A DNA stretch of 64,000 nt, from positions 21,176,001 to 21,240,000 of the forward strand of contig OU452198.1 in the NCBI GenBank assembly GCA_911728435.2, in the 5' to 3' direction. The translations under genes were made by a program, and so were the position numbers. This stretch comes from Apoderus coryli. Its lineage: Eukaryota; Arthropoda; Insecta; Coleoptera; Attelabidae. The notes under the pieces are model-generated. The model saw only the letters and a list, made by a program, of their open reading frames with translations. It had not been told where the DNA came from and ran no database searches. Positions 23,286-52,231 of this stretch are shown one piece after another (positions within the stretch are counted from its first letter, which is position 1; every line of letters begins with the position of its first letter).

Positions 23286-23355
23286 ACAAGAAATCCCTTT
23301 GGGATTTCCCAGTCGTTGTGTGGTAGTTTTAACTATGATAAAAGTCATTGAGGGT
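23286..23355 (-). repeat. 3' terminal hairpin of the giant element
   Basis: In element orientation: CTCAATGACTTTT, CATAG, AAAACTACCACA, then GAAATCCC-AAA-GGGATTTC directly followed by TTGT and the LINE. Same as the ends at 6,236, 10,852 and 12,159. The stem reaches to within four bases of the element end. Confidence 0.85.
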
Positions 23356-24040
23356 TGCAAAAAAAACTGAAAATATGGGTTGAAAACCTAATCAAATAAG
23401 TAGAATTACATATGAGACACCCTGTATATGTAAATGAGTTTTATGAGCCCATTCTTAGAAACTAAGAAAACTTAAAAGTTTTCCTATTAATTAGGTTTTG
23501 TCTTGCCTAAAAATTTTAAAAAATAAATGAAAACATTTTTGAGTTCCTTTGTATGTAAATTGTTTAACTACACAACTTAAAAAAAATCCTGTGCATAGAG
23601 TGAAGCTCTAAAAAATTAATTTTCTACTTCTTACATCGAAAAATTTATTAAGGGCATTAATAAATGAGTGAAATATTATGAGTTATCCCATAGATAATTT
23701 CTAGAAAATATATAGTTTAATAATTATAAAGTATTCTTAATTGAAAATAGAAAAATATTAAAAAGTTGCTTAAAAAATAAAGAAAAATAGAAACATTATT
23801 GAGTTAGACCACTTCTAGGAGCCTATAGTTTCACTTTTTTAATTTGAGATCTAAAAATATCAAAAAATTATTCAAAATTTAACTTTTTTGTTCTTGTAAA
23901 AATAAAGAAATACGTTTTTGCCTCCACCCCGTATATAAATTTAAAGTGCTTATGTTAAAAATTTGTAAATATTTAAAAGTTATTTAAATTGTACTCATAT
24001 ATTAATTTTGTGCATTATTTTCATTTTTATTTGTTCTTGT
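23356..24040 (-). other. 3' region of the giant element with degenerate satellite units
   Basis: No gene. 23,890-23,965 in reverse complement reads CATAAGCACTTTAAATTTAT, then ATACGGGGTGGAGGCAAAAA, a diverged unit of the satellites in E1/E2. The upstream TAGGAGC and GAGTTAGACC blocks match the E1 tail (CTCCTAGAGG, GGTAACTCAAAAATG). This links the giant element to E1/E2 beyond the hairpin. Confidence 0.65.
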
Positions 24041-24295
24041 TGTTTTTAATTAATATAACTTCTATTATATAATATTGTAAATAAATATTTACAACGAAAA
24101 ATTATAATAAACTTATCTTTTTGACAAAATTCATAATGACATTATATTTTTAAAAATTCTTATTATTTTCTTTTTATACAATTTATGTTGCTATGGCAAT
24201 CTAGGTAATGGTATTATTTTTAACAAATTGAAGCACATAATTAAATTAATAATAAAATTAATAAATTCCTATTAAATTATAAAGTGTCTTTAACA
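24041..24295 (-). repeat. BEL 3' LTR
   Basis: 255 bp, TGTT...AACA. Next to it (24,296-24,312), in element orientation, is GCCGGGGAGCA, the candidate polypurine tract. Confidence 0.9.
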
Positions 24296-24323
24296 TGCTC
24301 CCCGGCTTGAAGTGTCTGCACCT

Positions 24324-25832
24324 TCAAACCACACTACTATTCGCTTTGTTCACTGCTTCTTCTGGAAGAGGGCAAATTTTCGCAGTTCGAATTGTTGCAA
24401 CTCTGGAGCGATTGTCACGACCAGGATGTACGCCAATAATTCTACCAAGCGCCCATTGCATTGGAGGTACATTATCTTCTTTGATAACTACCATCATATT
24501 TTCTTTCAATATTTGTATATTGGAAACCTTCCATTTTACACGATGCTGAAGCTCAGATATGTATTCTTTAGACCATCGTTGCCAGAAATGTTGCTTCATT
24601 TTTTGTATTTGTTCAAAAATATCTAGCTTATTTTCTGTTAGATCAGTAAGTTCTGGTTCTGGTATGTTGGTTAAAGGACAACCAATCAAAAAATGTCCAG
24701 GCGTGAGGGGTATAAAGTCATCAGCAGACGATGAAAGGGGAGTCAAAGGGCGAGAGTTTAATATTGACTCAATTTGTGCAAAAAGTGTATATAATTGTTC
24801 AAAAGTTAACGGTTTATTACCTGACACTCTAACAAGATGGTGTTTGACACTTTTTACACCAGCTTCCCACAGACCACCAAAATGTGGGGAGCTTACAGGA
24901 ATAAAGCTCCAATCAATATTTTGATTAACAAAATCATAATTAAAATTATCCTTATTTTGCGTAACAAAATCATACATTTCTTTTAATGCAGAATTTGCTG
25001 ATACAAAATTTGATGCATTATCAGAATAAATTTTAATGGGTGTTCCCCTACGTGCAACAAATCTCCTTACACTCATTAAAAATGAATCTTTTGTCAAATT
25101 AGCTACTAACTCCAAATGAATCGCTTTCGTTACAAAACATAAAAATAAACACAAATATGCTCTTGAATTTCGACTACCTCGACCATGTCTGTCTTTGATT
25201 ATAAAAGGACCTGCGTAATCAACTCCTACAACTTCAAATGGTCGTCTGCAGTGTAACCTAAGCGTTGGTAAATTACCCATAATAGGAGTTATGGTTTTAG
25301 CTGTATAACGGAAACATCGAATACATTGTCGAACAATATTTCTGGCTAATGACCTGCCATGAGTGGGCCAATATCTTTCACGAAATGAATATAATAATTG
25401 TTGTGGTCCACAATGACATAATTTTATATGTTCGTATTTTAATAATAATTTTGTTAACTCGTGATTACCACTTAATAAAATTGGATATTTTTTATCAAAA
25501 TTAAAATCAGAGTTACTTAATCTACCACCTACCCGAACTAGACCATCATTATCCATGAATGGGTTTAAGTTTAAAATGTTGCTCTTTGTAGAAAGTTCTC
25601 TTTTATCTTTCAAACATTTTACTTCTGTATAAAAACTTTCAAGTTGTGATAACTTTATTAAAATATTTGTAGCATGTTTTATTTCTATAATACTGTATGA
25701 TCCATATTGGCGATTATCTTTTTTGAGACAATTATGTAAAAAACGGAACATAGCACAAATAACATGTATTAATTTTAAAATATGCGAATATTTTTTTAAA
25801 TATAGAGAAATCTGTGGTATGTGCAAAAGCAA
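24324..25832 (-). pseudogene. BEL/Pao pol: integrase and C-terminal domain
   Basis: Domains in order: the end of the pol linker, an H2C2-type zinc-binding region (HIKLCHCGPQQLLY ... RQCIRCFR, about residues 130-175), the rve integrase core with its three acidic motifs (VGVDYAGPF, IYSDNASNF, GGLWEAGVKSVK), then the DUF5641-type C-terminus (FWQRWSKEYI and GRIIGVHPGRDNRSRVATI). Integrase inserts the cDNA. The domain set itself is complete. It is out of frame with the upstream RNase H because of a run of seven A (minus strand) at about 25,793-25,799. Confidence 0.9.
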
Positions 25833-26730
25833 ATGTATCTTTAGTTTTTAATTCAATTAAGTCTTTATCAGATATACGTCCAAATGTTTTATTTGGCCAT
25901 TCATGTGTATCTTTGGAAAGCCATACAGGGCCATTCCACCATAGATCTGACTTTATAATTTCGCAGGGTTTCATACCACGCGATAATAAATCAGCAGGAT
26001 TCTCTTGAGAAGGAACATGTCGCCAAGAATCAATATCAGATAACTGTTGAATTTGTGACACCCTGTTACTAACGAAGGTCTTTAGATGAACTGGTTCTAG
26101 TTTTAACCAACTGAGAACTATTGAAGAAGCTGTCCAGAATACTTTCTTATCAATATTGATCTTTAATGCATTTGTTACCATATTTGATAATTTAGCTAAC
26201 ATAAGCGCTCCACATAATTCCAAACGAGGTAACGTGACAGATTTAATTGGACTTACTCTGCTTTTAGCGCATAACAAATTCACAAAAATCGTACCATTTT
26301 TATTTATGGAACGTAAATAAATACAAGCACCATATGCATGTTGTGATGCATCTGAAAAACCTTGCATTTCAACGAAAACTCTATTACAACAGAGAACATG
26401 CCGTGGAATTTTTAATTTATTTAATAAATGAAGTTCATTCCTAAAATTTGTCCACAATGTATGAAGATGCAAAGGTAAACTTTCATCCCAAGACAAATTT
26501 TCAAGCCATAATTTCTGAAGTAGAATTTTTGCAATAACAATGCAAGGGTTAACCAAGCCTAAAGGATCAAAGATCTGTGAAATCGTGGATAAAATTGATC
26601 GTTTCGAAATGTTAGTTTTCAACTTTAAGTCAATCGAATACATTAAACAATCAGTGGGAGGGCTCCAAGTGAGACCCAAAGTTTTGGTATGTTCTTCATG
26701 TCCAAAATTAATTACTTTGGAAGGGGATTA
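25732..26730 (-). pseudogene. BEL/Pao pol: RNase H and connection region
   Basis: Begins after a frameshift near 26,715-26,725, where the RT frame meets a stop and the sense continues in another frame as INFGHEEHTKTLGLTWSPPT. Then the Peptidase A17-type/connection segment (QIFDPLGLVNPCIV), RNase H first strand GFSDASQHAYGACIYLR, AKSRVSPIKSVTLPRLELCG and the ENPADLLSRGM motif. It is cut off by the poly-A frameshift at about 25,796. RNase H would remove the RNA strand during reverse transcription. Confidence 0.85.
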
Positions 26731-27475
26731 CTCTCAGGAACATGTTTTGTAATTTCAGGGTTATTAGAATAGAATTTCCTCAGTTCAAAACAGCCTTGTT
26801 TTAAGATATTGCAAAGACCATGACAAATGTCAATACCAGCTTCCACAGTTTCAGCGCCAGTAAGCAAATCATCGACATAAAAATCTGATTTAATTATTTC
26901 AGATAAACTAGGAAATTTCTCTTGATTTTCTAAAGCTAACTGGTATAGACAGCGAATAGCAAGAAATGGAGCCGATGCTGTCCCGTAAGTAACCGTTTGC
27001 AATTCATAAATTGACATTGGTTCATTAGAATCAACTCTCCAGAAGATTCTTTGTAAAGAATGTTGCTTAGGATCAATTAAAATCTGACGGTACATTTTTG
27101 CTATGTCAGCAGAAATGACAAACGAATGCTGACGAAAGCGCAATAATATAGAAAACAGAGTTTGTTGTATAGTAGGTCCAACCATTTGTAAATCGTTTAA
27201 CGAAATACCAGAAGTAGTTACCGCGGAACCATCAAACACTACCCTAAGTTTTGTAGTTAGACTCTCCTCACGAAATACTCCATGATGCGGAAAATAATAT
27301 TCAAAATCTGATTTATTATTAATATCAACCTTTTTCATATGCCCTAATGAAATGTATTCAGCCATGAAATAATTGTATAAAGTTTTAAAATTACTATTCT
27401 TTTGTAGTCTATTCTTTTCTAATGACAAGAATCTTGTTTTTGCCTGTCCAAATGAATCTCCTAACTTACTCGGAG
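26712..27475 (-). pseudogene. BEL/Pao pol: reverse transcriptase
   Basis: Carries RFLSLEKN (the pre-RT segment), YFPHHGVFRE, LRVVFDGSAVT, SLNDLQMVGP, the ADIAKMYRQI motif with the first catalytic Asp, FWRVD and the catalytic YVDDLLTGA. Fusion to gag-protease is broken at about 27,465, where the gag frame ends IPLRVS and the sense continues out of frame as PSKLGDSFGQAKT. This suggests a small deletion. Confidence 0.9.
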
Positions 27476-29494
27476 AGGTATAGATACGATGAATCGGCCA
27501 TCTGAGGAACGTTTTGTCGTTTCAATAAAATGTTTTTCACATTGCATTTCTTCAGAAGAACGTGGTTGACTTGTTGGAAATTCTTCCAAAGTCCAAAATT
27601 TTGATAATTGAGCTTGGATTTCATGTTCAATATTTTGTGAGAAATTGCACATCGAAACGGTTGGATATTTGACATATAATGGACTAGAAATGATCCATCC
27701 GAATCTAGTTTTTTGCAAAATTGGTTTATTTTTACCTAACGATATTTGACCATTACAAATGAAATTCCAAAATACGTCACAACCAAGTAACATGTCAATA
27801 CGTTTTGGAATCGAAAAGTTAGGATCAGCTAATTTTAAATTAGGAGGTATTTGTAGTTTGGAGATATCCAATTTTATATTAGGTAAACTTCCCGTGATTT
27901 CAGGTAAAACCAAACAATCCACATTTGTACTATATGAATAGTATTGAGATTCAATCTTCAAATTACACTTGCGTTCAACAAGAGAAGACATTTGATTTAA
28001 TCCTTTAACTGATAAATTAATTTTATCAGTATGTAAATTCAACTTTTTGCATAAATCAACAGTTATGAAACTTGACTGCGAACCGCAATCTAATAATGCG
28101 TTTGCTACATGTTTAATTCCAAATTTATCATAAACATCAACAACAACTGTTGACAGTAAGACATTGTTAATTAGTCCAAAGGCCGATACAGATGAATTAT
28201 TTGTATGCAAGCCATCAATGCTGGAAGTACTAGCATTTTCTGAGGTACTTACCTGTGCTTCAACAGATGTTGTAGCAGAATTATTAAAATCAAAATGCAA
28301 TAATGTATTGTGTTTTTTGTTACATTTATTGCAAGAACCTTTTTTGCAAACTTTACTTGCATGACCTGGTCGAAAGCAATTAATACATAACTTCAAATTT
28401 TTTATTTTTAAAAAACGATCATTTGGTGTTAAATTTAAAAATATAGAACAGTTTTGAAGTTTATGATTATTATTACAAATATCACATTTACTAGGTATAT
28501 TATTTGTATTTTCAACCGATAAAAATCCTTTAGTTGAGTTATTTTTGTTTTTAGTATTATTATGATATTTATTCTCTATCTGTTTAGCTTGAGAATTGAC
28601 TTCAATGCGTTTTAAAAATTCAATTCTATTATAAAGAAAAGATTCAAATTCCGTAAATGTTAAAGGTGAAGATTTAGATGTTTTGAATTTCTCTAATTCA
28701 TAAAACGTATTTTTGTCTAATTTTTCTGAAGCTAAACAAATAATTAGAGTATCCCAATATTCAACTGGCTGACCAAGTTGACGTAATGCACGCAAATGCT
28801 TTAATATTAAATCTATAAATCTTCTAATGTTTTGTGAAGTGGCCTTAATAACAGGTTCCACATTAAGTAAAGCTTTAGCGTGATTATCCACTAGTGAACG
28901 AGAATTATTGAATGTTTTAACAACAGTTTCCCAAGCACTCTCATAATCACTTTCTGAAAATTCAAAAGTTTCTAATATTTGAGCAGCTGCGCCTTTTAGC
29001 GACTCTCTCAAATAATGAAACTTCTGAATTTTATTAATTGATTTATTGTTATGAATAACGGACAAAAATGTGTCCCGAAATTTCAACAAATTCAAATCAT
29101 CACCTTCAAATATTGGCAATGGCATTTCAGGCAATTTAATACATTGTGACGCACAAGATGAAATATTATTATTATTATTTTCAATTACCTTATCGATATC
29201 ACTATGCTTTTTAATTATTGACTTCGCCCGTGATAATGCATCAAAATATGTATTTTCAAAAGCTTCTCGCTCTACATAAGCATCATTTAAATCATCATCC
29301 TCATATGATGATTCAATGAGGGTCTGTATTTCATCAAACTTACAGTAAGTATCCTGTATTTGATTTATTCTTTCATTTAACTCTAATAATTTTAAATCTG
29401 TCAAATCTGACACATTGTCAAATTTAGATAAATATTTAATAAAAAATGTTAATTTAGTTTTAATAGTACCACGTTTTTTAATTAAATCAGACAT
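27461..29494 (-). pseudogene. BEL/Pao gag and aspartic protease
   Basis: A frame is open from 29,542, but MSDLIKKRGTIKTKL at 29,494 is the family-like start. Domains: coiled N-terminus; DUF1759 capsid-like region (LPIFEGDDLNLLKFRDTFLS, YLRESLKGAA, about residues 140-290); zinc knuckles (CDICNNNHKLQNC, CINCFRPGHASKVC, CNKCNKKH, about 350-405); then a retropepsin (DUF1758) with ALLDCGSQSSFI, whose DCGS replaces DTGS as is usual in the family. It ends prematurely at the gag-pol junction. Gag forms the particle and binds RNA; the protease processes it. Confidence 0.9.
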
Positions 29495-29727
29495 TTTGAT
29501 TGTGGTAATATTATATGACGAAAGGAATATACACAAGCACAAATAAAGACAATATTAATAATCAATAAATGTATTATTATTGATTATATTCACTCACAGT
29601 TTAAGATCCCTTACACCATCAGCAAATGAATCATCCCTGTGTACCAATACAACACTACTCTGGATCCTCGCACCAATATTTTTGTAAAGTGGCAACAAAA
29701 GGTTCCAAATTCGTACTTTTGTGTATA

Positions 29728-29745
29728 ATCCGGCTCAAAGGACCA
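29728..29745 (-). promoter_or_regulatory. BEL primer-binding site
   Basis: TGGTCCTTTGAGCCGGAT on the minus strand directly follows the 5' LTR end (AACA). It starts TGG, the complement of a tRNA CCA end. I did not identify the tRNA. Confidence 0.75.
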
Positions 29746-30000
29746 TGTTTTTAATTAATTTAACTTCTATTATGTAATATTGTAAATAAATATTTACAAC
29801 GAAACATTATAATAAACTTATCTTTTTGACAAAATTCATAATGACATTATATTTTTAAAAATTCTTATTATTTTCTTTTTATACAACTTATGTTGCTATG
29901 GCAATCTAGGTAATGGTATTATTTTTAACAAATTGAAGCACATAATTAAATTAATAATAAAATTAATAAATTCCTATTAAATTATAAAGTGTCTTTAACA
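29746..30000 (-). repeat. BEL 5' LTR
   Basis: 255 bp, same boundaries as the left LTR. Followed on the right by the CTTGT target duplication. Confidence 0.9.
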
Positions 30001-30005
30001 CTTGT

Positions 30006-30929
30006 AATGAATTATAGTTTTGTACATAAATAAAACACATTAATTTTTTTTTTCATATTTATTTGATGTTAATTAATGAATAATAGTTTTGTACATAAAT
30101 AAAACATTAATTTGTGTTTGTGTAATTTTTATTTTATTTTAAATAGGAAAAATAATAAAACACAGGTACGGACTTTAGGGACAGTAAATTTTTCTCTTTT
30201 TTTTATTAGTAGGCTAGCATTTAACATTTTGCGTTAAAAGTATTATTTAATTTCAAAATGAAAATTTATATTCCATAATACATGGCAACTACGTGGTTTC
30301 TGTCAATTTTAGAAGATAAAATGTAACGTTGTCAGATGGTAATAATAAGACATCAATATATAAATCTGAAAAAATATATTTGTATTAATAATGCCACATC
30401 TATAGTCATTATTTGACTAAGACAATGCTATAGTTGATAAAATATTGCTGATATATCATATTTCTATTAAATTGTTATGGAAAAAGTGATAAAATTACTG
30501 TCCCTAAAGTCGTTCGTAACCTTTAAACAAATTTATAATTATTTTTTATTCATTGAGTCTAATATCTTATTAAGTAAATTATATTTTAAAATCTGTAAAA
30601 AAAAAGTATTGTTTAGTAGGTACAGTATTAATTGTATGTTCTTTATAGCCTAATTAAAAGTGATAGTAGTGTATGGTCAGATATTAGTTTTAACCTAATA
30701 TTTTGCTAGTAAAATAATAATTTTTAAATGAATTAATTAAATAAAAAAAAAGAAACTACGAAGTCATCTTAACAAAGTTTTTTTATTAATATTCTATAAT
30801 ATTATTAGCACGTTAGAAATATGTTTCAAAATATAAATTTGCATCATCAGTTAAATTAACTAAAAGGGAACAATGGTATGCAACAAACAGTTTTAGTGTT
30901 CAATTTTGTTTTGTTAAAAAATGTATGTG
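30006..30929. other. AT-rich spacer inside the giant element
   Basis: No gene seen. GTACGGACTTTAGGGACAGT (30,165-30,184) and ATTACTGTCCCTAAAGTCGT (30,495-30,514) form an inverted repeat about 310 bp apart, so a small fold-back element may lie here. A minus-strand AATAAA at about 30,782 could be a poly-A signal for the gene at 30,930. Confidence 0.5.
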
Positions 30930-33412
30930 TTAAATTAGTAATATATAGAAAAGAAAAATAGGAAGAAATATTATAAATTGTTCATGTCTAAAAAATGACC
31001 ATTTATTTTGATTGATGATAAGGGGTTTATAGTTCCGAAACATATTTTTGATGTGTTGGTAATGTGATACCAATAAATGAATTTTGTGCAGATGACGTTG
31101 TAGTTTGTGGTAACGTAGTGCATTCCATTGTGAAAATGGACTATTTTTCAATATTAATAAGGTAATATTACTCTGATGACATTTGTATTTCTTTTGATTG
31201 TAATTTTAATATTTTGTTGTATAATAAATGTTTTTTCAACATAAATAATTTTGCAGATAATTTTTGTGTTTTTGTAGTTGATATATTAGATATTATGTAA
31301 ATTTTCTAGGTATTAGAAATATTAAAAATATTTACCGTTTCCTCATCCGCCCTTCTCGGCGCATTCTGAAAAACAAAATAATATAAATAAATTTATTTAT
31401 GTATGCTATGCGAGTTGTTATATTGACATAATATAATATAAATAAATTTATTTATGTATGTTATGCGAGTTGTTATATTGACATAATATATAAATAAATT
31501 TTAGTTTTTGTACATTATTAATACAATGATGGGCTACTTAAAAAGAAGTAATTAAAAAAAAATTGTTAATTTATAATTTTAAAATATTTAAATTAATATC
31601 ATTTGATGTAAGTGGAAAGGGAGAGATAGTGGTGGATGGTTGCTAAGTAATTGAAAACTAATTAAAATTTATTAATATTAAAAGTTAATATAAACTTACT
31701 TCTCTATAGTGTTGATGTTGATTGTACTGGAAATAAAAAGTATACATTAGGATATGTTGGAACTAAATGTAATGACATAATATAGGCAATGATATAGGTA
31801 AAATATAAGTATTTTTTATTCACTTACAGGATTATGTCGGCGCCGGCGACGGTGGTTCTGCCGATTGTTCCTGGTGTTGTTCTAAAATGTACAATTTATT
31901 AAGTAACTTGAAAGGTAGAATTAGCTTTAAAATAGGTTTAAAGCAAATTTTGATTGTGTAGGTTTTTACATAGGTACTGACGAGTTTAATTTCTTTGTGT
32001 GTGTTTCAGTGTAATTATATTGAATTATAATAGGACATTGTTAATTTAAAGAAATTATTATATTATCGGGGAGATCAATAATTAATGTTTATTGCTGTCA
32101 CAAAAATATTTATATCTAATTGTACTGACGGATAGATTTTTGTTGTGATTGAAAATATAATATTAAAAAATAATATAAAGCAATTCACATTTCTTAGTTA
32201 TATATTATCAAGAATGGGCTGAAATGGAGTTGATTTAATTATTAGTAACAAAAGTAATACATATTTAGTAATTACAGTATATTAAATAGAAAGTAACTCA
32301 CATTTTCTTGTCGTTCCGTGGTGGTAGGCTGAAATGAAGTTGATTTAATTATTAGTAACAAAAGTAATACATATTTAGTAATTACAGTATATATTAAATA
32401 TAAAGTAACTCACATTATTTTCGCGTTCTTTGGGAACAGGGGGAATAGGCTGAAATGGAGTTGATTTAATTATTAGTAACAAAAGTAATACATATTTAGT
32501 AATTACAGTATATATTAAATATAAAGTAACTCACATTATTTACGCGTTCTTTGGGAACAGGAGGAATAGGCTGAAATGGAGTTGATTTAATTATTAGTAA
32601 CAAAAGTAATACATATTTAGTAATTACAGTATATATATTAAATATAAAGTAACTCACATTATTTACGCGTTCTTTGGGAACAGGGACAGGCTGAAATGGA
32701 GTTGATTTAATTATTAGTAATACCAATTTAGTAATTGCAGTATATGTGGTGGAAGTTAGCATCAAATACAGATTCAAGATTCACTTTTTTACAGTCAATC
32801 AGATAAGTAAGGAATATGTTAAAATAAATTTATTAAATATTAATATCTCACACATAAGTTCAGACTAAGTTTTTATTTTTCAAATATTAAGTTTGTTTTT
32901 AATCAAAATTTGTCAAAATCTAGCAAAATTGGACAAATAGAGAAACATTGCATTCATTTTACCGCAAAAGGATAATTATATTATTTATTATTTTTATACT
33001 AACAAATAATTTCTACCAAACCAACCTTTGTCCCAGTTTTATATTTTAAGAGTAAATTTATATTCAAAGAGCAAATATGTGGTTAAAATTAATTTCCAAA
33101 TTTTCTCTTGCGGCGGTCTGTAAGTGATAGTGAGTATATACTTTACATTGTCTAAGTTTGGTTTGATAAAAATAATTTTTTTAAATAAAGAAGTTTTATG
33201 AAAAGTATAATATAAAGCACAAAGTAATTCACAGTTAAATGAAAACCCTATAAAAATGTAAGTTGTTTTAGAGATATTTATCGTTATTAATATGTTACTT
33301 GTATGGTACATTTGAATACTTTGGTGGCGTCTATTTTTTTTGTGAAAATGAAATGTTAAAATATTATGATACATTTAGTTAAAATACTCACTTTTGCTGA
33401 TTCTTCTTCCAT
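30930..33412 (-). CDS. Unrecognised microexon gene carried by the giant element
   Basis: Predicted from splice sites on the minus strand. Exons in order: 33,392-33,412 (ATG, MEEESAK), 32,658-32,690, 32,535-32,570, 32,414-32,449, 32,302-32,328, 31,828-31,881, 31,700-31,726, 31,336-31,365, and terminal 30,930-31,172 ending TAA. The first eight are 21-54 nt. All have lengths divisible by three, with AG acceptors and GTGAGT/GTAAGT/GTAAAT donors, giving about 168 residues. The product is acidic at the start, then has repeats of PIPPVPKERVNN, a basic stretch NNTRNNRQNHRRRRRHNP, and a His/Lys-rich tail. I recognise no domain. A possible extra exon at 32,189-32,218 has an in-frame stop and a weak donor. 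Upstream donors near 33,490-33,570 may be 5' UTR exons. The weakest call is the terminal exon, whose acceptor has a poor pyrimidine tract. Confidence 0.45.
31384..31500. repeat. Two direct copies of a ~55-bp unit
   Basis: AATAAATTTATTTATGTATG.TATGCGAGTTGTTATATTGACATAATAT occurs twice in a row in an intron of the microexon gene. Confidence 0.85.
32189..32720 (-). repeat. Tandem exon-intron modules (~120 bp, about 5 copies)
   Basis: Each unit holds, on the minus strand, an intron end CTCCATTTCAG, a Pro-rich microexon (27-36 nt) and a donor AAT|GTGAGTTAC, followed by an intron with TAAATATGTATTACTTTTGT. Acceptors are at about 32,691, 32,571, 32,450, 32,329 and 32,219. The three middle exons encode nearly the same peptide. 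The last copy (32,189-32,218) is degenerate. Confidence 0.8.
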
Positions 33413-33744
33413 TCTTAAATCAATTAATCTAATATATTGTTATTAATCTAAAAGAATAACTAATGTAAAAATTTTTATTCTAGTTAATAATTGTAAATGT
33501 ACTTACATGCTTTTTTGTACGTAGGTATATTTATAATATTTTTAATGCGTATAATTGAAATACTTACCTTGGTTACTTACCAAAAACAAAAAAGCATCAA
33601 TCTATTGTTAGAATTTACATAGGTATCTTGAATATTTATTGAAAGAGCGAGTTATTGTGATTGGTTATTGCAATATACTTACAAAAAATCGTATTGGTTA
33701 ATTACCTCACTAAAATTTTGTAGTATTATAATAATTTATCTATT

Positions 33745-34400
33745 CGGGTTATTTTATTTTTTTTAAATGAGTATGTAAGAAGTTTCAACAGTAGTTTTGT
33801 TTGTGTATATTATTAAACATAATATCTCCAATGTGAATGATTATTAAGGTTATGCTTATTTGTTTTTTTACTAATTAGATTCTTCTTCTTTTTTTCAAGT
33901 TAGGTTGCCTCTTGCGATTTAATAGCAAACAGCCAGTGTTTTATCAATTAGATTAGGGTGACATTCAATATTATTATTTGTCACTGATATAATTTGCATT
34001 TTTCTATTAAATGGAATGTAAAGCTATCAAATTCATCATTGGATATAATATACTTATTCTACTCAGTTAATTCTTGATTAATATTTTAAAAGTATTATCT
34101 TTTTATAAAGGCAATGACAGAAGTGTATATAACGGAAGTTATGCAATATCTTTAAACAGTGTATTAATGGTTGTCTATATATGTAATTTATTGGGACCGA
34201 ATATTTTATGTAGCACCTAAAATTAAAGACAATTTCTTTTTGGCTCCCTAAATTATTTTAGAGATCTCTTAACTTAGCGTAGAAATTCGGGCATCGGGCA
34301 CCTAAACCTTACGTAGTGAGTTGACGCAAGCGCGGTATTAACATAGAGAAAATGAACAATTTTGTTAGGTTATTTCGGGTATTTAAATTAAAATAAAGTA
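33745..34400 (-). promoter_or_regulatory. Upstream region shared with the RepHel gene
   Basis: Collinear similarity to 49,790-49,995 (ATGAGTATG..A, TTAATTCTTGATTAAT against TCTCGATTAATTCGTT, ATCTTT.TATAAA, GACAGAAGTG.ATATAA) and to 50,930-51,120 (GTAGAAATTCGGG, GACGCAAGCGCGGT.TTAACAT). It lies about 330 bp and more upstream of the microexon ATG. On the minus strand TATAAAAAG occurs near 34,100. A shared promoter is inferred. Confidence 0.45.
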
Positions 34401-38865: not shown

Positions 38866-38869
38866 AGTA

Positions 38870-39205: not shown

Positions 39206-41236
39206 TTTTTTTGTTAATAAGAGATTTTAGAAATATCTCAATTATTAACAATTTTAAGATATTCTCAACTCAAATTTTTAATGTTTTATTTAAATGGTCA
39301 AATCAATATTGATAACCAATTGTAAACATATCATTAGACATGCAAACATATTAATGTTGCCAATAAGAGACTAAAAAATCTCAATTATTAGCTAAATTTA
39401 TGTAATTCTCAAGCTGAAATATTGATAAAAAGAGTATCTCTAAATATCAACAGCGAAATTGCATGTTATTAATGTGATATTACTGGAAATATATACTTAA
39501 CGTACAATTTCCGTAAAAACAATGTTTTTAGTGTAGATCTCATCAGAAGTAGGGCGTAATTTACCTTGTGAGCTGGTGTTCTCTACACAAACATGTACAC
39601 AATCGAAACCTTTCGTACGACTGAAGGCAGTATACATCATCCCATGGGTAAATACAGGATAAGGTAAATAAATACCTATCTTGTCAAATGTTTGACCTTG
39701 GGATTTATTAATTGTCATAGCGTATGCAACTTTAACTGGAAATTGTCGACGTCGCAACTTGAAAGGAAGAGAGGCGACAGTCTCAGTTAAATCAATACGC
39801 GGAATTAAGACAGTATGATCAGTTAAGGTACCTGTCATATCAATTCGCCTTGCTTCAATGCTATGTCGGAACAATCGAGTAATTAGTAACCGAGTGCCGT
39901 TGCATAAACTCAGATCGCAATTCATATTGCGCAAAAGCATAACTACAACTCCAACTTTTAAAATCAATTTATGTTCTGGCATGCCATTTGGTTGGAGTGA
40001 ATTGAGCGTTTCAACAGGATAATTGGCTGCCTCAATTTCTTCATCATTTTCATAAAAAACTTTGTCCGCACTATAGTAGGTACTTGCAGGCCCTTCCATA
40101 CTTTGAACAATTCCAAAATTTATGGCATTGCAATGTTCGTTCAATGGTGCGAGAATGGCACATTTAGGAACAGTTCCTGGTTGCAAATTTGGAAAACAAA
40201 TTGTCAACAGTTCCTCTTTAGAAGCCACCAAACATTGTGCTGGAATCACGAATAGATTTGGTGTGGAAGGAATATTGACAGGAGGTAAAGTATTGTTTCC
40301 CAAGTGTAGCAACCATTCGGAAAATTCACGTTCTTCTGGACGTGCTCGCACGTTAGTGACTAATTGCAATTTGGTAAATGATTCCCACAGATAGCTGTAT
40401 TTAAGGGTTTCGGCAACAATCTGTGACCTGTATGCATTGGGCATGACAGGTAATGTTTGACGAAAGTCACCTCATAGTAGTATAACTTTTCCACCGAATA
40501 GTTTGTCATTTCCGCACAAATCTTTTAAAACTCTGTTGATGAGTTCTAACGCTAATCGAGGTATCATTGACATTTCATCAAAAATGATGAGCTTGGCATT
40601 TCTGATGGAACGACCGTCTTGGCTATTTGCCCGTAGTTCTGAGACAGACGTATCTGTAAGGGGAACTGGAAGTTTGAAGCGAGAATGTAAAGTTCTACCT
40701 TGTTTCATTAAGCTAGCAGTAATGCCTGTCCAAGATACAGGTATTACTGGAAGTTCTCTGCCATTCAAATAAGTAATTAAAGCGTTAAAAACAAAAGTTT
40801 TTCCCGCTCCAGCGCAACCGGTGACAGCGAAGAGACGTGGTTCCACATTGTCATCTTCAACAGCTGCTATAACTCTGAAAAGAAAAAAAGTATATACATT
40901 AATTGTTATTGCATAAGAAGTGTAATTGCAAAAGTACTTTATTTTTACTAAGAAATTGTTTCTGTAATTTTATATTATTGTTTTCAATAAAATCAGCTAG
41001 AATTGTAACATTGTCGACTACACATTGTACATAAATATTTAGTGACAAAGCTTTTTTGTTTGACGTTTTTGTTAGCGGAAGAAATTAAAAAGAAATTATT
41101 AGAAACTGCAACAAAAATGGTCAAAAATTTGCTCTCTTCAAAGAACAACGCATGCTCGAGAATAAATATTTTTATTTTAATTAAATGAATAGACATTTGA
41201 GTTGGGCGTTATGCGCGGACGTTTTATGAAATATAT

Positions 41237-41864
41237 ATAATGTGTCGAAAATAAGAATAGGATATCATTGGAATATTGGAAATGATTGGAGTTAAAATGT
41301 CGGTTAAATTAAAGATTAGTTTTACAACTTAAACAATTTTCAAATGGCGTTTTCAAAAAGTAAATTACGTTTAGTTGTTTTCGAAATTGTTTGAAAACAA
41401 AATGTTGCGATTATAATTTTTAATTATTTCTGACATGATATTTATAGATATAAAAAAATGAAAGGCACTATCTCATTGTTACTTTTTAAGTAGAATAAGA
41501 TAGTGTTTAGAAATTTTTACTACGACATTTCGTTTTTGAAAAACCATCATAAATTTCATTTTTTAAATATGGCCCTGGATATTTTTGTTGTTAAATTTAA
41601 ATATCTGTGGTATATTACACGTAGGTATTAGTGTAAAGAAGTTTTTAGTATATTTTTTATTTTTTCGTCGTTACTGACAATTATTTATTATTTTATAATT
41701 TTTTTCTGTCTCAGTCAGTTTTTAATAATAAACAATGCAGGGCCGTATTTAAAAAAACAAAGTTAATGATTGTATAGCTTTTTGCCAATTTCAGCGATAT
41801 TGTAAGTTACACCGTTTTCAAGATTCCAATGCTACCCCATTCTTCTTTTGGATACAGTGTATAA
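41237..41864. mobile_element. Fold-back element, copy 2, in RepHel intron 6
   Basis: Left TGTGTCGAAAATAAGAATAG and right CATTCTTCTTTTGGATACAG are imperfect inverse complements. Inner arms share TAAATATGGCCCTGG / CAGGGCCGTATTTA. It is a diverged relative of 36,118-37,006 and explains most of the large intron. Confidence 0.65.
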
Positions 41865-44800
41865 TGCTCGGAAATATTATTCACGGTTGTTATGGATATG
41901 TTAATGCATGCCGTTTGCAATACAGTATGAAGCAATAACATCTAAGTAGAAAATAAATGAAAAAGTAATGTAATTTGTTGAAACTGTATTCGGTAGCATT
42001 CAATTATTTATTTAAACATTAAAAGAAAATAAATTTAAGAAATTTACCTGTCAAAAACGTTGCGCTGATCTTCATTTAATTGATCTCGCATTTGAATTCC
42101 TGCGAGGAGCTCATCTTGAGGATTTACTGGAACCTCATTTAATTCCAATCTTTCTTGTGGTTCTGGAAGATTGAAATCAGATAAACGTTTGTTGTTTCTC
42201 AACATAATGCTTTGTATAAATGCAAGCGTTTAAACGTTGTTCCGCCCTGTTGTTATTGTAACCGCGATGAATGTAATCTTCCATCATACAGTCACGAAAC
42301 ACTTCCCACAATTCCAATGGATTAGTTACTTCTCCGAAGGTCAAGATGTGAGCAAAAAGTCTTCTAATAACTTTAGGGACTTGGTGCTCTCGAGCTTCTT
42401 GTAACGCTCGGTGCCATTCTTGATCGTCTTCAAGAAGTAATCGTGCGCGGCATGCGTCAAGGAATGTCTCGTACAAAGTGTCTGAAAGTATGCATAAAAA
42501 AAGTTTAGCTGAATGAAATAATTGAAACAAAGAATTCTTTACCATCAACAGTGCGAAGATCTTCGTATGATGTGGCTCCTCTAACATGTAATAACAACAC
42601 TCGGAGATAGTATTGTTCTGTGTTACGAACGGACACATTGTACATTCTAGCAACCATTTTGTCAACTCCTCGTTGCCGTTGTTGCCAACGTTTTTGAGGA
42701 GTTTTCCAGACATAATGTTGGGGAATGTCTGGGTAACGGTATTGGCGAGCGCCAACATCTTCTCGGTTCAGTCTAAACCAATCTGTAAGCTGTGTTATTT
42801 CATTTCTCTCAACAGCTTGCTGTTCATTGCCCCTTTCGAAATGAACAATATTCCTGTGTGGTAAATGCACTGGAAGACGATAGACAGTATGGGTTATATC
42901 ATGAATTTTAAATTGATTAATATGATATGCAGCCTCAGGTGCAGTTACGTATCTGCCAGCCAAATAAGTTTCAGTCTCGTCATAATTTAGTACGTTGCGT
43001 ACTTCCAAATGAAGGAGGGCACGGTCAACGCCTTTGAAAACATATTTATGGAGATATTTCACGACCCTAGTATTAGCACAAACATCAATGTTAATGTGTG
43101 TTTGATACCTAAGTAGAAGATATCGATTATACGGAACAACCCATTTGTTATCAACAACATGAGTGTTTCTAATGAATGCTTCCCTACCATTGTTTGGTCT
43201 TTTGTAAGTCACTCTACCATGAGGATCAATAGTAGTTTCATCACAAAAGTTATGGGGATACTTTCGTTTGCAGCGACCGTCCTCCATGCAAGAAGCATTA
43301 GGATTTTCAGGGCCACATGGAGAGTGTATCATGTGTTTTACAACCAAACTAAATAGATCTGGTTCTAAATCACGATCTGGAAGTTCAGCAGAAACAGCCT
43401 GGTTTATCCGCTCTGTATCTAAGAGTTTGTCTTCTGCTCTTAGAGTCAAAACTATATGCGCATGGGGTAAGCCACGCTTTTGGAATTCTATAGTATAGAA
43501 CTGACATACTGGTACGCCAAAAATATAGTCATCTAAAATTTCTTTTAGTAACTGATTTAATTTGGTATTGAAAACTCTTGCTACCAACATAGGATGATTA
43601 TTAGGATCATCATTTGGAGGAATGTTCTCCACAATCTCTCGCCAATTAGGATTGCAAGTGACTGTAATGAATAATGTTGGAGTTCCAAATTTACTATTTA
43701 GACAGAGACTGTCCTGAAACAATTGATGCATGTATCTGGGTCCACCCACATACGATGAAGGCAGAATGACCATTCGGCCTACTTGTTCTGCTTCGTTGTC
43801 GACAGCTACTCGATGGAGATAGTCCATGAGTCCTTGGTAATGTTCAGCACGAAGGCGACCCTGATTTCGTTTGATGTATTCAATATTATTTGCTTCCATG
43901 CGAATAAATGCAGAAACAATGAATTGTTGGGTTAACTGAGCAGCATGTTTAAATCGGTCAAATGAATTTTCGTCATTTTCACGCCTGTATGCTAATCGAT
44001 ATGCATAATATTGACACAATGTCACTCTTCTATTGGTATTTCTGTGCGTTAGATCTAAAGACCATCCAAATTCACCGTTTGGAAATAGTAATGGAAAAGA
44101 TAGAGGATCAATTTTTGGGTCCAAGTGCGAGAGCTGGCGAAATAATTCACGCCTACCTGGACCTTCAATTTGATTACAAACGAAAATTCTGATATTTGAT
44201 GTAGGAGGAAGTTCATTGTTAAAGGGATATACAGCTGCTACTTCATTTACTGTAGGTAAATCGAAACGCCTGTCTCCTCTAACAGCTAACAATTCTAACA
44301 CTACATTTGGAATTTCGTTATTATGTTGTTGTTCTCTTTCGACCACTTCCCGTAGCATCATATATCCGTTAGCATATAGATTAAATGTACGCATGGTATT
44401 TTCCAGAATTTGAATCAAATTGACATTCAGATTATAACGTGGTTGATTGGCTATGCGTTGAGCTATGGCAGCATTAGGATCCAAATAGTAGATTGGACCA
44501 CGATTGGGCTGTGGATTAGCTATATTAACATTTGAATAATGATAATAAACTTTGCCTTGCACAGAATATGTGAATGGGCCAGGGTTTCGAAATTCTCGAA
44601 GATTTGCCATCATGCTAGCAAATTGAAATGCATTGTTATAGCGAATAGCATTTCTTTTTAATTGTCTGGATAATGGATGACGACCTGTAAATAATTGTTG
44701 CAAGACTGGTGGAAAAGGCTGTAGAGCAGGTAGATTGTCAACATGAATTTTACCACCTTTACAACATTTACTATAATTTGATCGAGTTGTACGTTCCAGC

Positions 44801-45200
44801 AAAAAATGCAAAGCGCCACAAAACGTGCATTCTCTATCCATAGCTCCAAGATGAAGAGGTTCTGCGTTCCTTTCAAAACCACGCAAATATCCACGTTGAA
44901 GTTGTCTAACATTTCTCAGGCGAGCCAGGTCGGCCATAAGAACATTGGCTTCTTCTTGATATTGAACCAATCTGTCAGCCAAGTTATTTTGATTTTGGTT
45001 ATGAGGATTGTCATTATTGACAATTTCCAAATCAGCAACAACTTCTACTGGAACATTTTCCACTTCCGCTTCCAGTGGAACATTTTGAATTTGAAGGTTG
45101 TCGTCAGTGGCATTTTGTAATTCCTCATTTTCCATAGGTTCCAGTGGAATTAAAGGAATTATTGGTTGACTTTGAATCTCTTCTTCGTCATTATCGTGAA

Positions 45201-46430
45201 CTGAAATATAATAATATTAAAAGTATGTGCAGAATATAAATATCAATGAGAATAGTATTTTTTTTCTTATGATTTAATGTTTGATATTTAAAAGAATATA
45301 GAGAATTAACAAATTTTTTTTATTCAAATTGAGTACAGGGATGTAATAGGAAAAAAAATTATATTTACTAATTATTTTCGCCAATGCAATGGTGTTAGAA
45401 CATATACGTAAAACAACACAACATTGGAATTTTAATATATTTGTTTTTGTTTTAAATTTCATGTTATTTTTTGCTTAAAACAGTCGAACTTATTATGGGT
45501 CTAAAATGAACAGTTTTGCAGAAATTTGTCTCTAAACAAAAGTTTTGAAGTAAAGATTCCTACATTCAACTGTGTGTACCTTAATATGCACTCTTTATTT
45601 GTAGACATTTGTTTAAAGACAAATGTTTGCAAAACTTTACAATTATCACTTTTTTAAGCCAAAATGAACAGGGTATTTTAAAAAAATATATTTACTTCAG
45701 TGGCGTAAAAAATAGAGGGATAAATACTGTCACTAATTTCTATAGCATGGAACTGCTTAATCTTAAAAAGATGGTTTATCAAAATATAATTTTTTAAATA
45801 ACATAATCGATACGTAATTTACAATATATATTTAAAAGCGTTTTGGAATTACCTATGGCATATATTTGGAGTTTATGCAATGTTACACAGGCAATCGCAG
45901 ACTTTAATTTAAAGGCAAATTCCTGCAAAACCGTTCACTTCAGACCCATAAAAAGCCATTACTTTTTTAAGCAAAAATGAATATGGATTTAAAAAAATTA
46001 CAAATTACAGTGGCGTAAAAATATATAAATATAAGCACTAACTTCTATAGCATGCTACTGGTTAATTTCTTAAAGATTATTTATTTCAAAATCAAAACAA
46101 AATATTACTTTATTAAAGAACATATTGGTCATTAAATTAGAAAAAAATATTTAAAGAACTTTTTGAATTATGGCAAAATTTCGATTTTAAATGTTTGAAA
46201 CCCTGTATCTAGATAAGTAAGCCCTTTAAGGGTATATGTCCCTTTATCAAAATACATGAATTAGCGAGTGTTTTTTGTGGTAAAACGTTATCGGTCGAAT
46301 ATAGAAACATCCTGTAGTATAGGTAATGCTTTGAAAAAGTAAATACACACAATTATTTTAGGTTACATAAATTATAAATAAAAAAATAATATAAAATGAA
46401 ACGGCTATTTTTTAATTGCATAATTATTAC
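45201..46430. repeat. Repeat-filled RepHel intron 4
   Basis: 45,640-45,800 and 45,960-46,130 are diverged direct copies (CAGTGGCGTAAAAA, CTATAGCATG.AACTG.TTAAT). TATGGGTCTAAAATGAACAG and the inverse CTTCAGACCCATAAAAAG also occur. No gene inside. Confidence 0.6.
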
Positions 46431-46999
46431 CTGGATGGGATGATGCTATGTCAGTTGGTGGCAAATTAATTATTAGAGCATCATCTACCTCAATATGTTC
46501 AACGGATTGTGATTGTTGTTCTGAAACAGCATTTTGCGAAGTAGAGATTCGACGGAGCCGTTTGTTTCCAGGTAGAGGATTAGCTAAAAATTAAATGAAA
46601 ATTTTTTCACTCATACCATATTTGCATATAAGATAATAAATTAAATATTATCGATATGATAATTTATTTTAAAACTCGAAATTTCATGTTTATCTTTCCT
46701 ATGTTCATCCATATACCAATCTAAATTATTTCCTATCATTTACATGTAAGATAAGTACGTCGAAAATCATTTATTCATGCACACCCCCTTTTAACTGTGT
46801 TATTTCACCCTGTAGAAGAAAATGTTAAATACGAAAGTTTTCTGTTTGAATTTAAACTACTTATATATATTATTATTAAAGATTGTTTTCTTCCAAAATT
46901 AAAATATTTGATTGGTCTATATCAAACGGATCAATAAATATTCACACAAAACTGAGAAAAAAACCAAAATATTTACAATTGATGTTCGAATCTGTATCT

Positions 47000-47400
47000 G
47001 TTTACTTCAATGCATTTTTCGATGTTATTCCTTAAGTTGTTAATAGTATTTATTAAAATTACGCTTTTCTTGGATGAATGTTTTACGCAAAATAAGTACC
47101 AAACTATGGGAATGTTTCTTGGATAATTTTACATAATAAGAACAGTGATAATATCCACCACCTAGTTTGGAATTGAAAATTGCTCTACATATAACAATAA
47201 AAATTCCAGGGCCGTATGGAAAATAACCAATTTGATGATGGTTTTTAGGAAAACAAAACGTCGTAGTGAAAATTTGTAAACGTTATCTTATATATCTATA
47301 AAAATAATGTCAGTAGTAAATAGAAACTAAAATTTTCAAAAAAAAAATTTATCAAAATTTCTAGAAAACGCCTAAAGTTATTTTACTTTTCAAAACAACA
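47000..47400. mobile_element. Partial fold-back element, copy 3, in RepHel intron 3
   Basis: ACGCTTTTCTTGGATGAATG, CAAAATAAGTACCAAACTAT, CCAGGGCCGTATGG and GATGATGG...AAAACGTCGTAGTG match the right half of 36,118-37,006. The left half is not clear. Confidence 0.55.
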
Positions 47401-48965
47401 ATTAAATGGTGTTTAAATTAAACAATTAATAAATTTAAAATATATTTACCATTTGTATTATTGGTAAAATCACCGATTGATAATCTACTCGGACCTGGAA
47501 GTTGGCTAAAATGTTCAGCATTTCTTTTGTGCCGTTGATTTCCATTTACATTGGAAGTAGCTAGGTATAAAACAAAAAAAAACAGTATATTATTTTGGTT
47601 TGTCTGTTTCCAAATTGTCTTAGTGTTCCAAGTTGTACTTTTATAAATATTTATCGTGGTCTTTACTAGAGGTACATTCTGTATGAGGGAATGTGTGTGT
47701 CAATAAATTTGAGTACATTGTAAAAACGGATGTAGCATATTGCAAATGAGTTTTTCGCATAAAAAAATTCGATATTATTATTATTGTTTTATTTTCTTAG
47801 TGTTTTGGGAAAACTGCTTGTGCGATAGTTCAAAAACGTACTAAGTTCAAATATGATGAGCGAGTCGAGGGTAGAAATATATGGTACGAAGTGCTGGACT
47901 CTGTATCGATGTGGCTATGTGAATTTAAAACAACTGAAGCATTTGTTTTGGTTTTCTAAGTTCAAGTTGTAGTTTTACTTATATTTATCACCGTTTTTGT
48001 GAAAGGACATCGTGTATATGAGAATGTCTACCAATACGTTTAATTACATTTTAGAAAATATTCGAATAAGGATGTCCCTTATTCCAAATGAATGAATTTT
48101 TTGAGTATAAACCACTCGATATTAATTTTTCTGTATTCTTTATAGTTTATAGTACATAAAAATTATATATTTATAAGTGAGGGTAGAAAGGCTGGAAATT
48201 ATATATTTGCTTTGTTTTTCTTGGTGTATGTGAATGTGCGGTGTTCTATTGTGGCTGCCTACTAAATTATTTTTCTCGATAAAATTTTTACAATGTAAGA
48301 TACACCTACCTATATAGATTGAATTAAATAAAAAAAAATAATTCTATAACATACCATTCATATCATCAACTTGAGGTTCATCAGTATCATCTACGGTGCC
48401 ATCTGCATTTTTGCTACATTCAACGGCATTGTTATTTTCAATGATAGCACCTTCTTCAACTAATTGTGCATTTTCAGCAACTACATTTACTTCAAGTGGT
48501 GCTCTACTACAACCTGGGACCTGGCTTTCCCTAGGAGTATTGCGTTCTTGACTTATTTGTGTTGCAATCAATTGGCTGCTCACATTAGTGTTGGTTGATA
48601 CTATACATGTGAAAAATTTCATACTTAGGTATAACAAATGTAAAATGATGTTATGAAGTCACATACAAAGGAATTTTTATTGGCAATATTCTTATAAAGA
48701 GAAAGGATTTTAATAGTTCAAAATTGGAATATTTCCAAGATCTAATGAAATGTATAAGATCAAAACGAGAAGAGTTGAAAAGAATATAAAAATATTTGTA
48801 GTTAAGTAAGGGTTATTAAAATGTACTGAAGTACTTATGTATGAATTACTTACCTGTAGTTGATTGGGAATTAGATATCACATTCCCATTTTCCTTTTTG
48901 GTATTTCTACCTCGACTATCGCGTCCTTTTTTTGTAGAAAAATTAGTTTTCTTCCTTGGTGGCAT

Positions 48966-51474
48966 ATTATTCAAAATGAAAAAAATTATTAACAATATCG
49001 AAATCTTACTTGCACTTTCTATTTCTTGAAATAGAAAATTATTTGGCGTGGCTTCTTTTTTAAACATCATGATATTCACTTGTTTTTTCAAATCCAGATA
49101 TCTAGATTTTATACCATATTATATTTCTAAGAATAAGTCCAGCTCATAACGAACACCACATTAAAACTAATGGGTCTATACCATTATAAAAAAAAATTAT
49201 CGTTTGAAATGTTAAATTGTTGATTGATCAAGAAATATATTTTCCAACTATTTAAATTTTATATCAATATTGTAATGATGATTTTGTTATTTTGTTTATA
49301 AAGAATTTAATTTTGGTTTGAATAAACGATAACAAATATGACGTCATTAATAACAATAATAGTATTGTTCCACGTTCCACTATGACAGTATTTTTATAAT
49401 CATAACATCAGTTCACGCAGTGTGATAAAGTGAAGTATAATCAAAAATTTATAGTAGTACATAGGTAGCATAATTTAGAATTTTATTATTACTACAACAA
49501 TATAATAATAATTCTTTTATTAAAATCTCCATAAAATTGAGGATTATTTAAAATTGTATCAAATAATATAGAGAGAGACTGAACTGTATTAGAAATAGAA
49601 AACTTACAAAATAGATAAAGCTTGTAGTGGGAATAATAACTTATCCATGGTATTTAGCTTTTTTCTTTTTAGAACTGACAGTATTATAAATATTAGATTT
49701 TATTATTTTTCGCTAAATCTTAGCATTTTGCTATACCTGTCTCTTATGCATGTTCCTTTTATAAATTTCGTTATATTTTAATAACTTACTCGGTTTTTTT
49801 TTATAGTTTTTTAATGAGTATGCAATAAGCATACCTAACATATTACTCATTGGTTAATAGCCATCTATTAACCTTGCTACTCACTTATTTCTCGATTAAT
49901 TCGTTAAAAGGATCATCTTTCTATAAACAATGATAGAAGTGAATATAAAATATATATAAAAAATGAAGTAATGGTTGCCTATATATTTGTAATGTGTGTA
50001 TGTTTGTAATTCATTTGCATAGTCTCTTTTTTTGCTTTCGACCACATAATATCACATACATATAAGGGAAACTTAAATGTATGACGTAGAAAATTAATAT
50101 TAGTTCTGTATATAAAAGTTGCATGGCGTTGGAGTCGAAAACTCTTTAACTAAATCTGCCTGTCGGTAATTGCGTTCTGTTTTCTGTTCTGTCATTGTCT
50201 TTATAAAGACAATGCTCCTGTGTTCTGTCAGTCCTGTCAATTGTCAATACAGAAGAAGGTTAAGATAAAATTCGTTGTTTGTCTTGTTCTTAAAATAGCC
50301 TCTTCATATTCTCGAAAAGAGTCAACAAATTATTAGTAGGAGCTTATAGGCTTATAATATAATAATTATGTGAAATATAACCGTGTGGGATTCTGAATTT
50401 AAAACGGTATAAACTCTAAATTACGAAAAAGACACCTACTCATCTCGAATAACCGTGAAATTGCACAAATAAGTTTATAACTACACAGGTAAACGAACCC
50501 CTTATTGTTTAGAATATTTGGTTTAGATTTTTAGAATATTCTGCAATTTTGTGGAAGAAGGTTGTTGTATACACTGGTTGTTTGCGTGCCTCCTGCTGCA
50601 ACTTGAAGATGGTTATAATAGGTGTGAATAAGTTTAGTGCCTGGGTGTATGGATATAACCAGTAAACGATATAGATTTCGTTATAAGGATTCATAACTTA
50701 TGCGTGTATGGCTTACTAATATTAATAAAATTCACATTTCAATATGAGATAATCTTGCAGTCCTTGTTTTTTTATCACGATCCTCATATCCAATTTAGAA
50801 ATTCCTGCCAAATTATTTGAATTAAATTTGGCGCCATCTATCTATTAATGCACAAACTTTCTTGTTTGCTTACTTAATCACGATTCCTGTCAATTATAAA
50901 ATAGGTTCGACAACCGTTGCAAAGTTTCCAGATCTTAGTGAGACAGTATTCATTATATTATATTGTATGTGTTCCTAACCTAGCTTAGAGATCTATAAAT
51001 TTAGGTGTAGAAATTCGGGTAACTGAACATATGACCATATCTAGTAAGTCGACGCAAGCGCGGTTTTAACATAAAAAAAAGTAAAATTTTATTAGGTTAT
51101 CTCTTTGTATTAAAATAACCAATAGGTTCACCTGAAGTAACCTTTATATTTAGTTTCAAGCTGATCTAAATAATAATAATAGGTAATAATAATAATGTAC
51201 CTACCTACCGATGTTGCCCTCATAATAGAAAATTTAATTAGATAGCTTTTCCTCGGTGCAGTAGGTATAACTTGAAAAATGGATTCAAGTTTGCTCTAAA
51301 GTAAGAAATAAAACACTTAGATATTGTTATTGAAATAAATCTAATGTTCATTGAGTAAGAATAGTTTAAAGTCGATAGGTATTAAATTCTTGTTATGGTT
51401 CTTGGAAAGTTTTTATTGAGTATAGATAGATGCTTTTCAGTGGTGGTTAGAGATTGAGACGTCTATCTGGTAGT
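48966..51474. other. RepHel upstream region
   Basis: No gene seen. It holds the block shared with 33,745-34,400 (49,790-49,995 and 50,930-51,120) and a 22-bp perfect palindrome at 50,193-50,214 containing TATAAA. Confidence 0.5.
50193..50214. promoter_or_regulatory. Perfect 22-bp palindrome with central TATA
   Basis: Half-site CATTGTCTTTA followed by its exact inverse complement. The centre gives TTTATAAA on both strands. It is about 1.2 kb upstream of the RepHel ATG; a variant (TCTTTTTATAAAGGCAATGA) lies upstream of the microexon gene. A TATA-box or protein-binding role is conjecture. Confidence 0.35.
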
Positions 51475-52231
51475 ATGTGTGAAGTGAGTCATATTTTTAA
51501 AGAATAATACTTTTTCAATAGAATTTACGAATGTTTCATTGATAGGATTGTCACTAAAAATATAAGAAATTGCTTCTCCCATATGTTTTTCTAAGGATAT
51601 AGTCATGAAAAAGGTTTTCAAAAAAAAATCGACAAATTCCAATATAGTGCACCTCTAGTTTACGTCATAATTTGGTTTTGGTCAAATGTTTTTTCTAACA
51701 CGTCAAACAAATTGCTTGTGTCAAATACTTTATTATTTTCTTTGTTTACTTCATAGTCTAAAAGTTTTCGGCATTATTTTTATGTTTGAGATCAATTTCT
51801 ATCAACATGTTGTATATTGTAGTGTTATAAAAAGGTTATTCGATATAGTTGTAGTAAATTTAGAAGTTGTCATTGTGTATTTAAAGTAATTTTACTGAAA
51901 AAGTGATAATAACCTAAAGTGACAGTGCCATGAAAGCCGTCAGATGGATGGATGTGATCATGTTTTTGAATAGCCCCAGAAGAATATGTACCTCTGCGTC
52001 GCACACTTCAATTAACTGTGTAGATGTAATTAAATTAATTAATAAAATAGTGAGACCGCATTAAATCACAGTTGAAAAGTAGCCTATTTAAAAGTTTCGA
52101 AACTAAAATTGCCTTTTAGACTGCACTGCGGGTACTTGGTACGGCGTAACTTTAGTTATGGTGGCTTTAAATTTGACCTTTTTGCAGCTTTTCGACGACA
52201 AAGACAGCGCTATCAGAATTTATATTTATTA
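51475..52231 (-). repeat. 5' end of the giant element (E3-like)
   Basis: Reverse complement of 10,853-11,695. Includes the 5' subterminal palindrome (52,203-52,214, one mismatch from GATAGCGCTATC) and shared GTGTG.GACGCAGAGG, CATCCATCCATCTGACGGCT and GTTGTCATTTTA-type blocks. 51,780-51,860 matches 11,260-11,330 closely. Confidence 0.85.

Follow-up and report, generated by a model that had tools for sequence, protein, structure and literature searches.

A probable Helitron with non-canonical termini inserted into the reverse-transcriptase region of a LINE

Within the window (the whole 64-kb stretch of Apoderus coryli DNA analysed here), a 28,946-bp insert on the minus strand, from 23,286 to 52,231, interrupts the reverse-transcriptase (RT) region of one LINE copy. 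The 5' part of the LINE, up to the start of the RT, is present at 52,232-53,262 and the 3' part, which contains the RT, at 22,632-23,285 (both on the minus strand). Each part was assigned by protein comparison, join spacing and trees; the 3' part also matches Pfam RVT_1 (E 6.7e-12), and a Pfam search with the two ORFs of the 5' part alone gave no match. When minus-strand bases 52,232 and 23,285 are joined, SKILERVIQEQLRKY/IETNKLLPQMQSGF is restored in one frame. The LINE nucleotides on either side of the insert read ...AGAAAGTATAT and AGAAACTAATAAACTA... on this strand, and the site with the insert removed reads AAGTATATAGAAAC. The LINE copy carries further frameshifts besides the insertion.

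Relatives of the LINE were collected with a composite protein of both halves, against which 7,987 candidates were scored. Of the 2,879 relatives with E<=1e-3, the best 120 cover 72-100% of the query, and the named matches among these are beetles. The alignment spans 25 residues across the join, both in the query and in 120/120 of the best relatives, and by eye the join spacing is equal in a further LINE copy of the window, at about 16.2-18.2 kb (SKILERILNDQIKQYVIDSGLLPKTQSGF). FastTree, run on each half separately, places the query with the same 13 relatives in a 14-member clade (supports 0.988 and 0.982), and the 14 relatives with the highest left identity share 8 members with the corresponding 14 for right identity (chance overlap p 8e-6). 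As a counterpoint, the best 120 relatives show no correlation between their left and their right identity (Spearman -0.04), a result that can arise because relatives were selected on the joined score; all of them, including those in both trees, were collected with the joined query. Judged by spacing, frame and trees, the two halves are one element. The original prediction had them joining inside the RT with no clear overlap or gap, which agrees with these results.

The junctions leave the assignment of one T ambiguous: the element ends at 52,231 and 23,286, or at positions that are both one base higher. The LINE frame is kept only when host and element each receive one T. This can be done in two ways that fit equally well, insertion between A and T with element ends TT...CTTG or insertion between T and A with ends TA...CTTGT. 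From the sequence, insertion between A and T (AAGTATA/TAGAAAC) is most likely; this is the canonical Helitron target in the available text of two papers (PMC4067079; PMC4778049). Such an insertion is compatible with 2/2 sites in the window, the LINE and an array of copies at 212-12,159 with the same host context (CATCAATAA/.../TAATAATAAT), again with one T ambiguous and with T-A fitting equally. A Helentron-like TT target would shift the LINE frame, which argues against it; the argument is strong rather than absolute because the LINE copy has other frameshifts and its frame may have been lost before the insertion. With LINE spacing preserved relative to all of the best 120 relatives, no target-site duplication is apparent.

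The insert has the orientation of a minus-strand Helitron (5' end at 52,231, 3' end at 23,286), whose termini are common to other copies in the window and coincide exactly with the LINE junctions. The 5' terminus, (T)TAATAAATATAAATTCTG at 52,214-52,231 (minus), recurs in the window, since TAATAANTATAAATTCTG is found both there and at 10,853-10,870 (plus). The 3' terminus at 23,286-23,312 (minus), which is defined by recurrence, profile and folding, is a hairpin with an 8-bp stem (GAAATCCC/GGGATTTC) followed by TTG(T). Its pattern, CTGGGAAATCCC-(3-4 nt)-GGGATTTCTTGT, occurs with 0 mismatches at 6,209-6,236, 10,825-10,852 and 12,133-12,159 on the plus strand as well as at 23,286-23,312 on the minus strand. 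A 3'-end profile built from five copies recovers those five at E<=3.5e-26, one of them being the insert edge, and finds nothing further below E=4.3, hence no second 3' end inside the insert. Inside the insert, the 5'-end profile matches at the edge and otherwise once, at chance level. Because there is no second internal 3' end, one insertion is the simplest reading. Folding of the 3' hairpin gives a z of -2.9 (1/200 shuffles equally good), and for the 5' end 182/200 shuffles fold equally well. Thus both inner junctions are element ends known independently, as had been claimed, the 3' end from three other window copies and the 5' end from one, and the claim of exact boundaries holds to one base, given the ambiguous T. 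The 5' region of the insert is 83% identical to 10,853-11,455 over 603 aligned positions, and the insert's first 767 bases and its last 81 find collinear matches in the copy at 10,853-12,159, to which the reversed insert gives none; as counter-evidence, ~370 bp in the middle of this copy match nothing in the insert. Repeats lie at both junctions of the LINE, as they might if unrelated contigs had been joined in assembly. Such an artefact is nevertheless highly improbable: the 64 kb contain no N, and a misjoin is not expected to break exactly at transposon termini and to keep the LINE spacing.

At 212-12,159 (plus), three related Helitron copies (X, Y and Z) lie head to tail with zero bases between them (CTTG/TTAATA at 6,236 and 10,852), in a host context that is split between A and T. 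X and Y have a similarity of about 90%; Z differs. Copies X and Y hold tandem arrays of 112-bp and 130-bp units, at 3,611-5,888 (8+11 units) and 8,406-10,505 (3+14 units), and units related to the 130-bp one are also seen in the 3' part of the insert (23,785-23,972) and at 63.1-63.3 kb. Elsewhere in the window, at 57,070-58,508 (plus), two ORFs resemble by eye what we take to be the envelope-type gene of an LTR element. As an element that starts with T and inserts between A and T renews this target at its 5' junction, later copies can land there, head to tail. From the three copies we infer that the array arose by such repeated insertion; rolling-circle read-through is an alternative. Self-insertion that yields composite elements has been described for Fusarium Helitrons (PMC5148889).

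The insert has its own RepHel gene, as originally predicted, here modelled from Pfam, a match to Helraiser and splice sites as seven exons at 39,497-48,965 on the minus strand (48,965-48,854, 48,600-48,355, 47,560-47,450, 46,583-46,431, 45,200-42,543, 42,481-42,048 and 40,874-39,497, designated A to G). Splice sites were picked by eye and then checked computationally; the introns are GT-AG. Exons A-E together read through 1,093 codons without a stop, and each of the four introns between them is in phase 1. Exon F contains a frameshift near 42.22 kb and exon G an in-frame stop at 40,472-40,474; because of these two lesions, the copy has probably lost its autonomy. Pfam identifies Helitron_like_N (E 1.2e-54) and PIF1 (8.2e-29), and the HUH motif (RGLPHAH) and two-tyrosine motif (KYLHKY) are present. 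Two long pieces are 40 and 45% identical to P0001. The two longest ORFs match Helraiser (PDB 7lcc), the 903-aa Rep ORF at E 3.8e-181 and the last RepHel ORF at E 2.2e-80, reaching residue 1,495 of 1,496. In Rep motif 2 (EFQKRGLPHAH) the residue before PH is L (Helitron-type), not S, a position that is diagnostic according to Thomas et al. (PMC4067079). There is no C-terminal endonuclease; the ORF ends at the end of the helicase, as in P0001 and Helraiser. Three named relatives come from one beetle, one thrips and one plant, and a scan of viral contigs for relatives of the Rep ORF found none.

Short family copies in the window lack RepHel, and the outer termini are unlike canonical TC/CTRR ends. 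Both observations would suit a different, nested Helitron to which RepHel belongs, the outer ends then being those of a non-autonomous element. This arrangement is quite unlikely, given that RepHel is oriented as the outer ends would predict and that the only family 3' end of the insert is the one at its edge. Moreover, a scan for canonical ends (hairpin with a perfect stem of at least 7, CTRR and T) found 0 on the minus strand from 39,496 to 30,006, where 0.065 are expected by chance and diverged ends would escape, and 0 in the last 755 bases. No nested canonical Helitron around RepHel was thus seen in this one strict scan.

The element is about four times longer than Helraiser. Part of the insert is a nested BEL/Pao LTR retrotransposon at 24,041-30,000 (minus), in which LTRs, a target duplication and BEL-type domains are all found. 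Its 255-bp LTRs (24,041-24,295 and 29,746-30,000) are 98.4% identical with TG...CA ends, the duplication CTTGT is present at 24,036-24,040 and 30,001-30,005, and the Pfam domains are DUF1759, DUF1758, DUF5641 and Integrase_H2C2 (gag plus integrase). Among the best 120 relatives of the integrase ORF, the named ones are nearly all from insects, with one spider; the best named include the beetles Callosobruchus, Dendroctonus and Euwallacea. Together with the named LINE and RepHel matches, these relatives suggest that the host is probably a beetle. On the opposite strand, CTTGT is also the pentamer that ends the Helitron itself, which is probably a coincidence. The BEL/Pao element (5,960 bp) arrived after the Helitron insertion; without it and one CTTGT, the insert is at most 22,981 bp long. 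Repeat comparison, with boundaries set by eye, further indicates that RepHel intron 6 probably holds a nested inverted-repeat element (41,232-41,863), which has an inverted-repeat relative at about 36,119-37,010, and that RepHel intron 4 probably holds a second one (45,439-46,005). All three (~0.6-0.9 kb each) look nested, and their removal would leave about 21 kb. Consequently, of the prediction that a ~28.9-kb Helitron-like element splits one LINE, the event stands and the size that moved does not, 5,960 bp being later BEL/Pao.

Downstream of RepHel lies a 9.5-kb AT-rich stretch (30,006-39,496), defined by composition and mostly C-poor on the plus strand. In 500-bp steps its GC content is 19-29%, and the plus-strand skew is 0.20 at 30,006-36,118 and 0.22 at 37,011-39,496 (z 5-8 by simple count); the steps at 34,500 and 39,000 are not C-poor. 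Pfam was run on 10 of its 16 listed ORFs, none of which passes the cut-off. Over the whole interior, none of 20 ORFs searched among 43 (at least 55 aa, outside the main RepHel ORFs) reaches it, and four of these 20 are RepHel exons; the cargo proposed originally was therefore not found in this set. Rfam and tRNA scans across the window were empty. A spliced-exon scan of 30.0-39.5 kb, made without a shuffled control and so suggestive only, yielded 7 overlapping candidates for the minus strand and 4 for the plus strand. At 32,190-32,745 (minus) there are tandem 121-bp units with a 27-36-bp core that resembles a phase-0 micro-exon (CAG/PIPPVPKERVNN/GTGAGT). Between units 2 and 4 the intron-like flanks match at 59/60 and 57/58 positions and the core at 16/27; this pattern could have arisen by diversification of the exon, by homogenisation of the introns or by insertion of introns.

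The 30,006-39,496 stretch may be non-coding DNA that belongs to the Helitron, DNA that it captured, or additional insertions. Its composition, unlike that of the rest, and the head-to-tail copies at 212-12,159 lend some weight to a composite, made either of tandem Helitrons whose inner ends were lost or of foreign non-BEL DNA that forms much of the 23 kb. The latter version overlaps the best explanation where that DNA arrived later. A composite nonetheless seems unlikely on the whole, with a single 3' end, 5'-profile matches confined to the insert edge apart from the chance-level one, and a similar skew in RepHel intron 6 outside the nested element (0.19 and 0.26; few bases, z 1.8 each). Tentatively, and with some doubt, one can also imagine an autonomous insect Helitron lineage of ~20-23 kb, with TT/CTTG ends and an intron-rich transposase, in which the 9.5-kb region with its spliced-looking micro-exons moves as part of the unit; such a Helitron would carry a second gene, either host-like or its own.

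Very probably, then, the insert stems from a single integration, with no target duplication, of a broad-sense Helitron into the RT region of the LINE, and this Helitron later took up the BEL/Pao and inverted-repeat elements. The broad-sense assignment follows from an HUH Rep with two tyrosines and a Pif1-type helicase in one gene. Canonical Helitron ends are 5' TC and 3' CTRR; those found here are TT (or TA) and CTTG (or CTTGT), and for this reason its ends are not classed with the canonical ones. Judging by sequence, the protein is Helitron-type and the ends are not canonical. The hairpin is 19-20 nt long and 3-4 nt from the 3' end, and the canonical palindrome is 16-20 nt long and about 11 nt before the end. 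A Helentron/HINE was ruled out by the Rep residue L, the missing endonuclease, the absence of 12-15 bp subterminal inverted repeats and the break that a TT target would make in the LINE frame. Helitron2 was also ruled out, there being no exact inverted repeat >8 bp between the ends (the longest, in the first versus the last 120 bp of the insert, is 8 bp) and no 5' hairpin better than shuffles.

The locus itself displays the precise insertion, the lack of a duplication, the family termini and the Helraiser-like gene, and the preceding steps may be supplied by analogy with the available account of the Helraiser model (PMC4778049). The transposase would nick the 5' end, and one strand would be peeled off while the helicase unwinds the DNA. 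The 3' hairpin would act as a pause or stop signal, followed by cleavage after CTTG, and the released circle would integrate at a new AT site. After insertion, the BEL/Pao element and the short inverted-repeat elements would have been acquired, and the transposase gene damaged. The order of nesting at the locus is clear (Helitron into LINE, BEL/Pao into Helitron), and the frame of the interrupted LINE fixes both Helitron junctions to one base. A RepHel like that of canonical animal Helitrons is here combined with TT/CTTG ends, and searches that require TC/CTRR would miss such elements. Any further full-length copies would reveal the maximum size of a moving animal Helitron.

The event is of a known kind, and ordinary in kind; the ends are variant and the size is large but partly acquired. 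In common with Helraiser/Helibat1 (PDB 7lcc; PMC4778049, as far as its available text goes) are a RepHel homologous in both ORFs tested and up to the C-end, the HUH and two-tyrosine motifs, an AT target (compatible here) and a hairpin near the 3' end. In the same account Helraiser differs in having TC/CTAG ends, compared with TT/CTTG (or TA/CTTGT) here, and a hairpin 11 nt from the end instead of 3-4; the gene described here has six modelled introns. Each end has its own precedent. HELPO2 of Pleurotus ostreatus, in the portion of its description available (PMC4289320), shares the CTTG 3' end, AT insertion (compatible here) and a subterminal hairpin, but is fungal, 3.9-10 kb long and has a 5' T[C/G] end. 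Proto-Helentron-Pi of Phytophthora infestans (PMC4067079) shares the 5' TT end, A/T insertion (both on the A-T reading of the site) and the lack of an endonuclease domain, but its Rep groups with Helentrons, its 3' end is CTAG and it is about 14 kb long. TT and CTTG together were not met in the literature as partly available. The phrase "giant Helitron" was not found among the literature matches listed, and a multi-term query on insect Helitrons returned no matching paper. As for size, the longest element in a survey of the insect Hel1 family is 8,065 bp (PMC6544945, available text), and maize Helitrons, in sources likewise available in part, range from 128 bp to 20,874 bp (PMC3288121) or are cited up to 35.9 kb (PMC4289320). 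Hence the size, singled out in the original prediction, is indeed notable for an insect but not unique for a Helitron; the large maize elements are of a like size class, although they are from a plant and their published lengths may include nested sequence.
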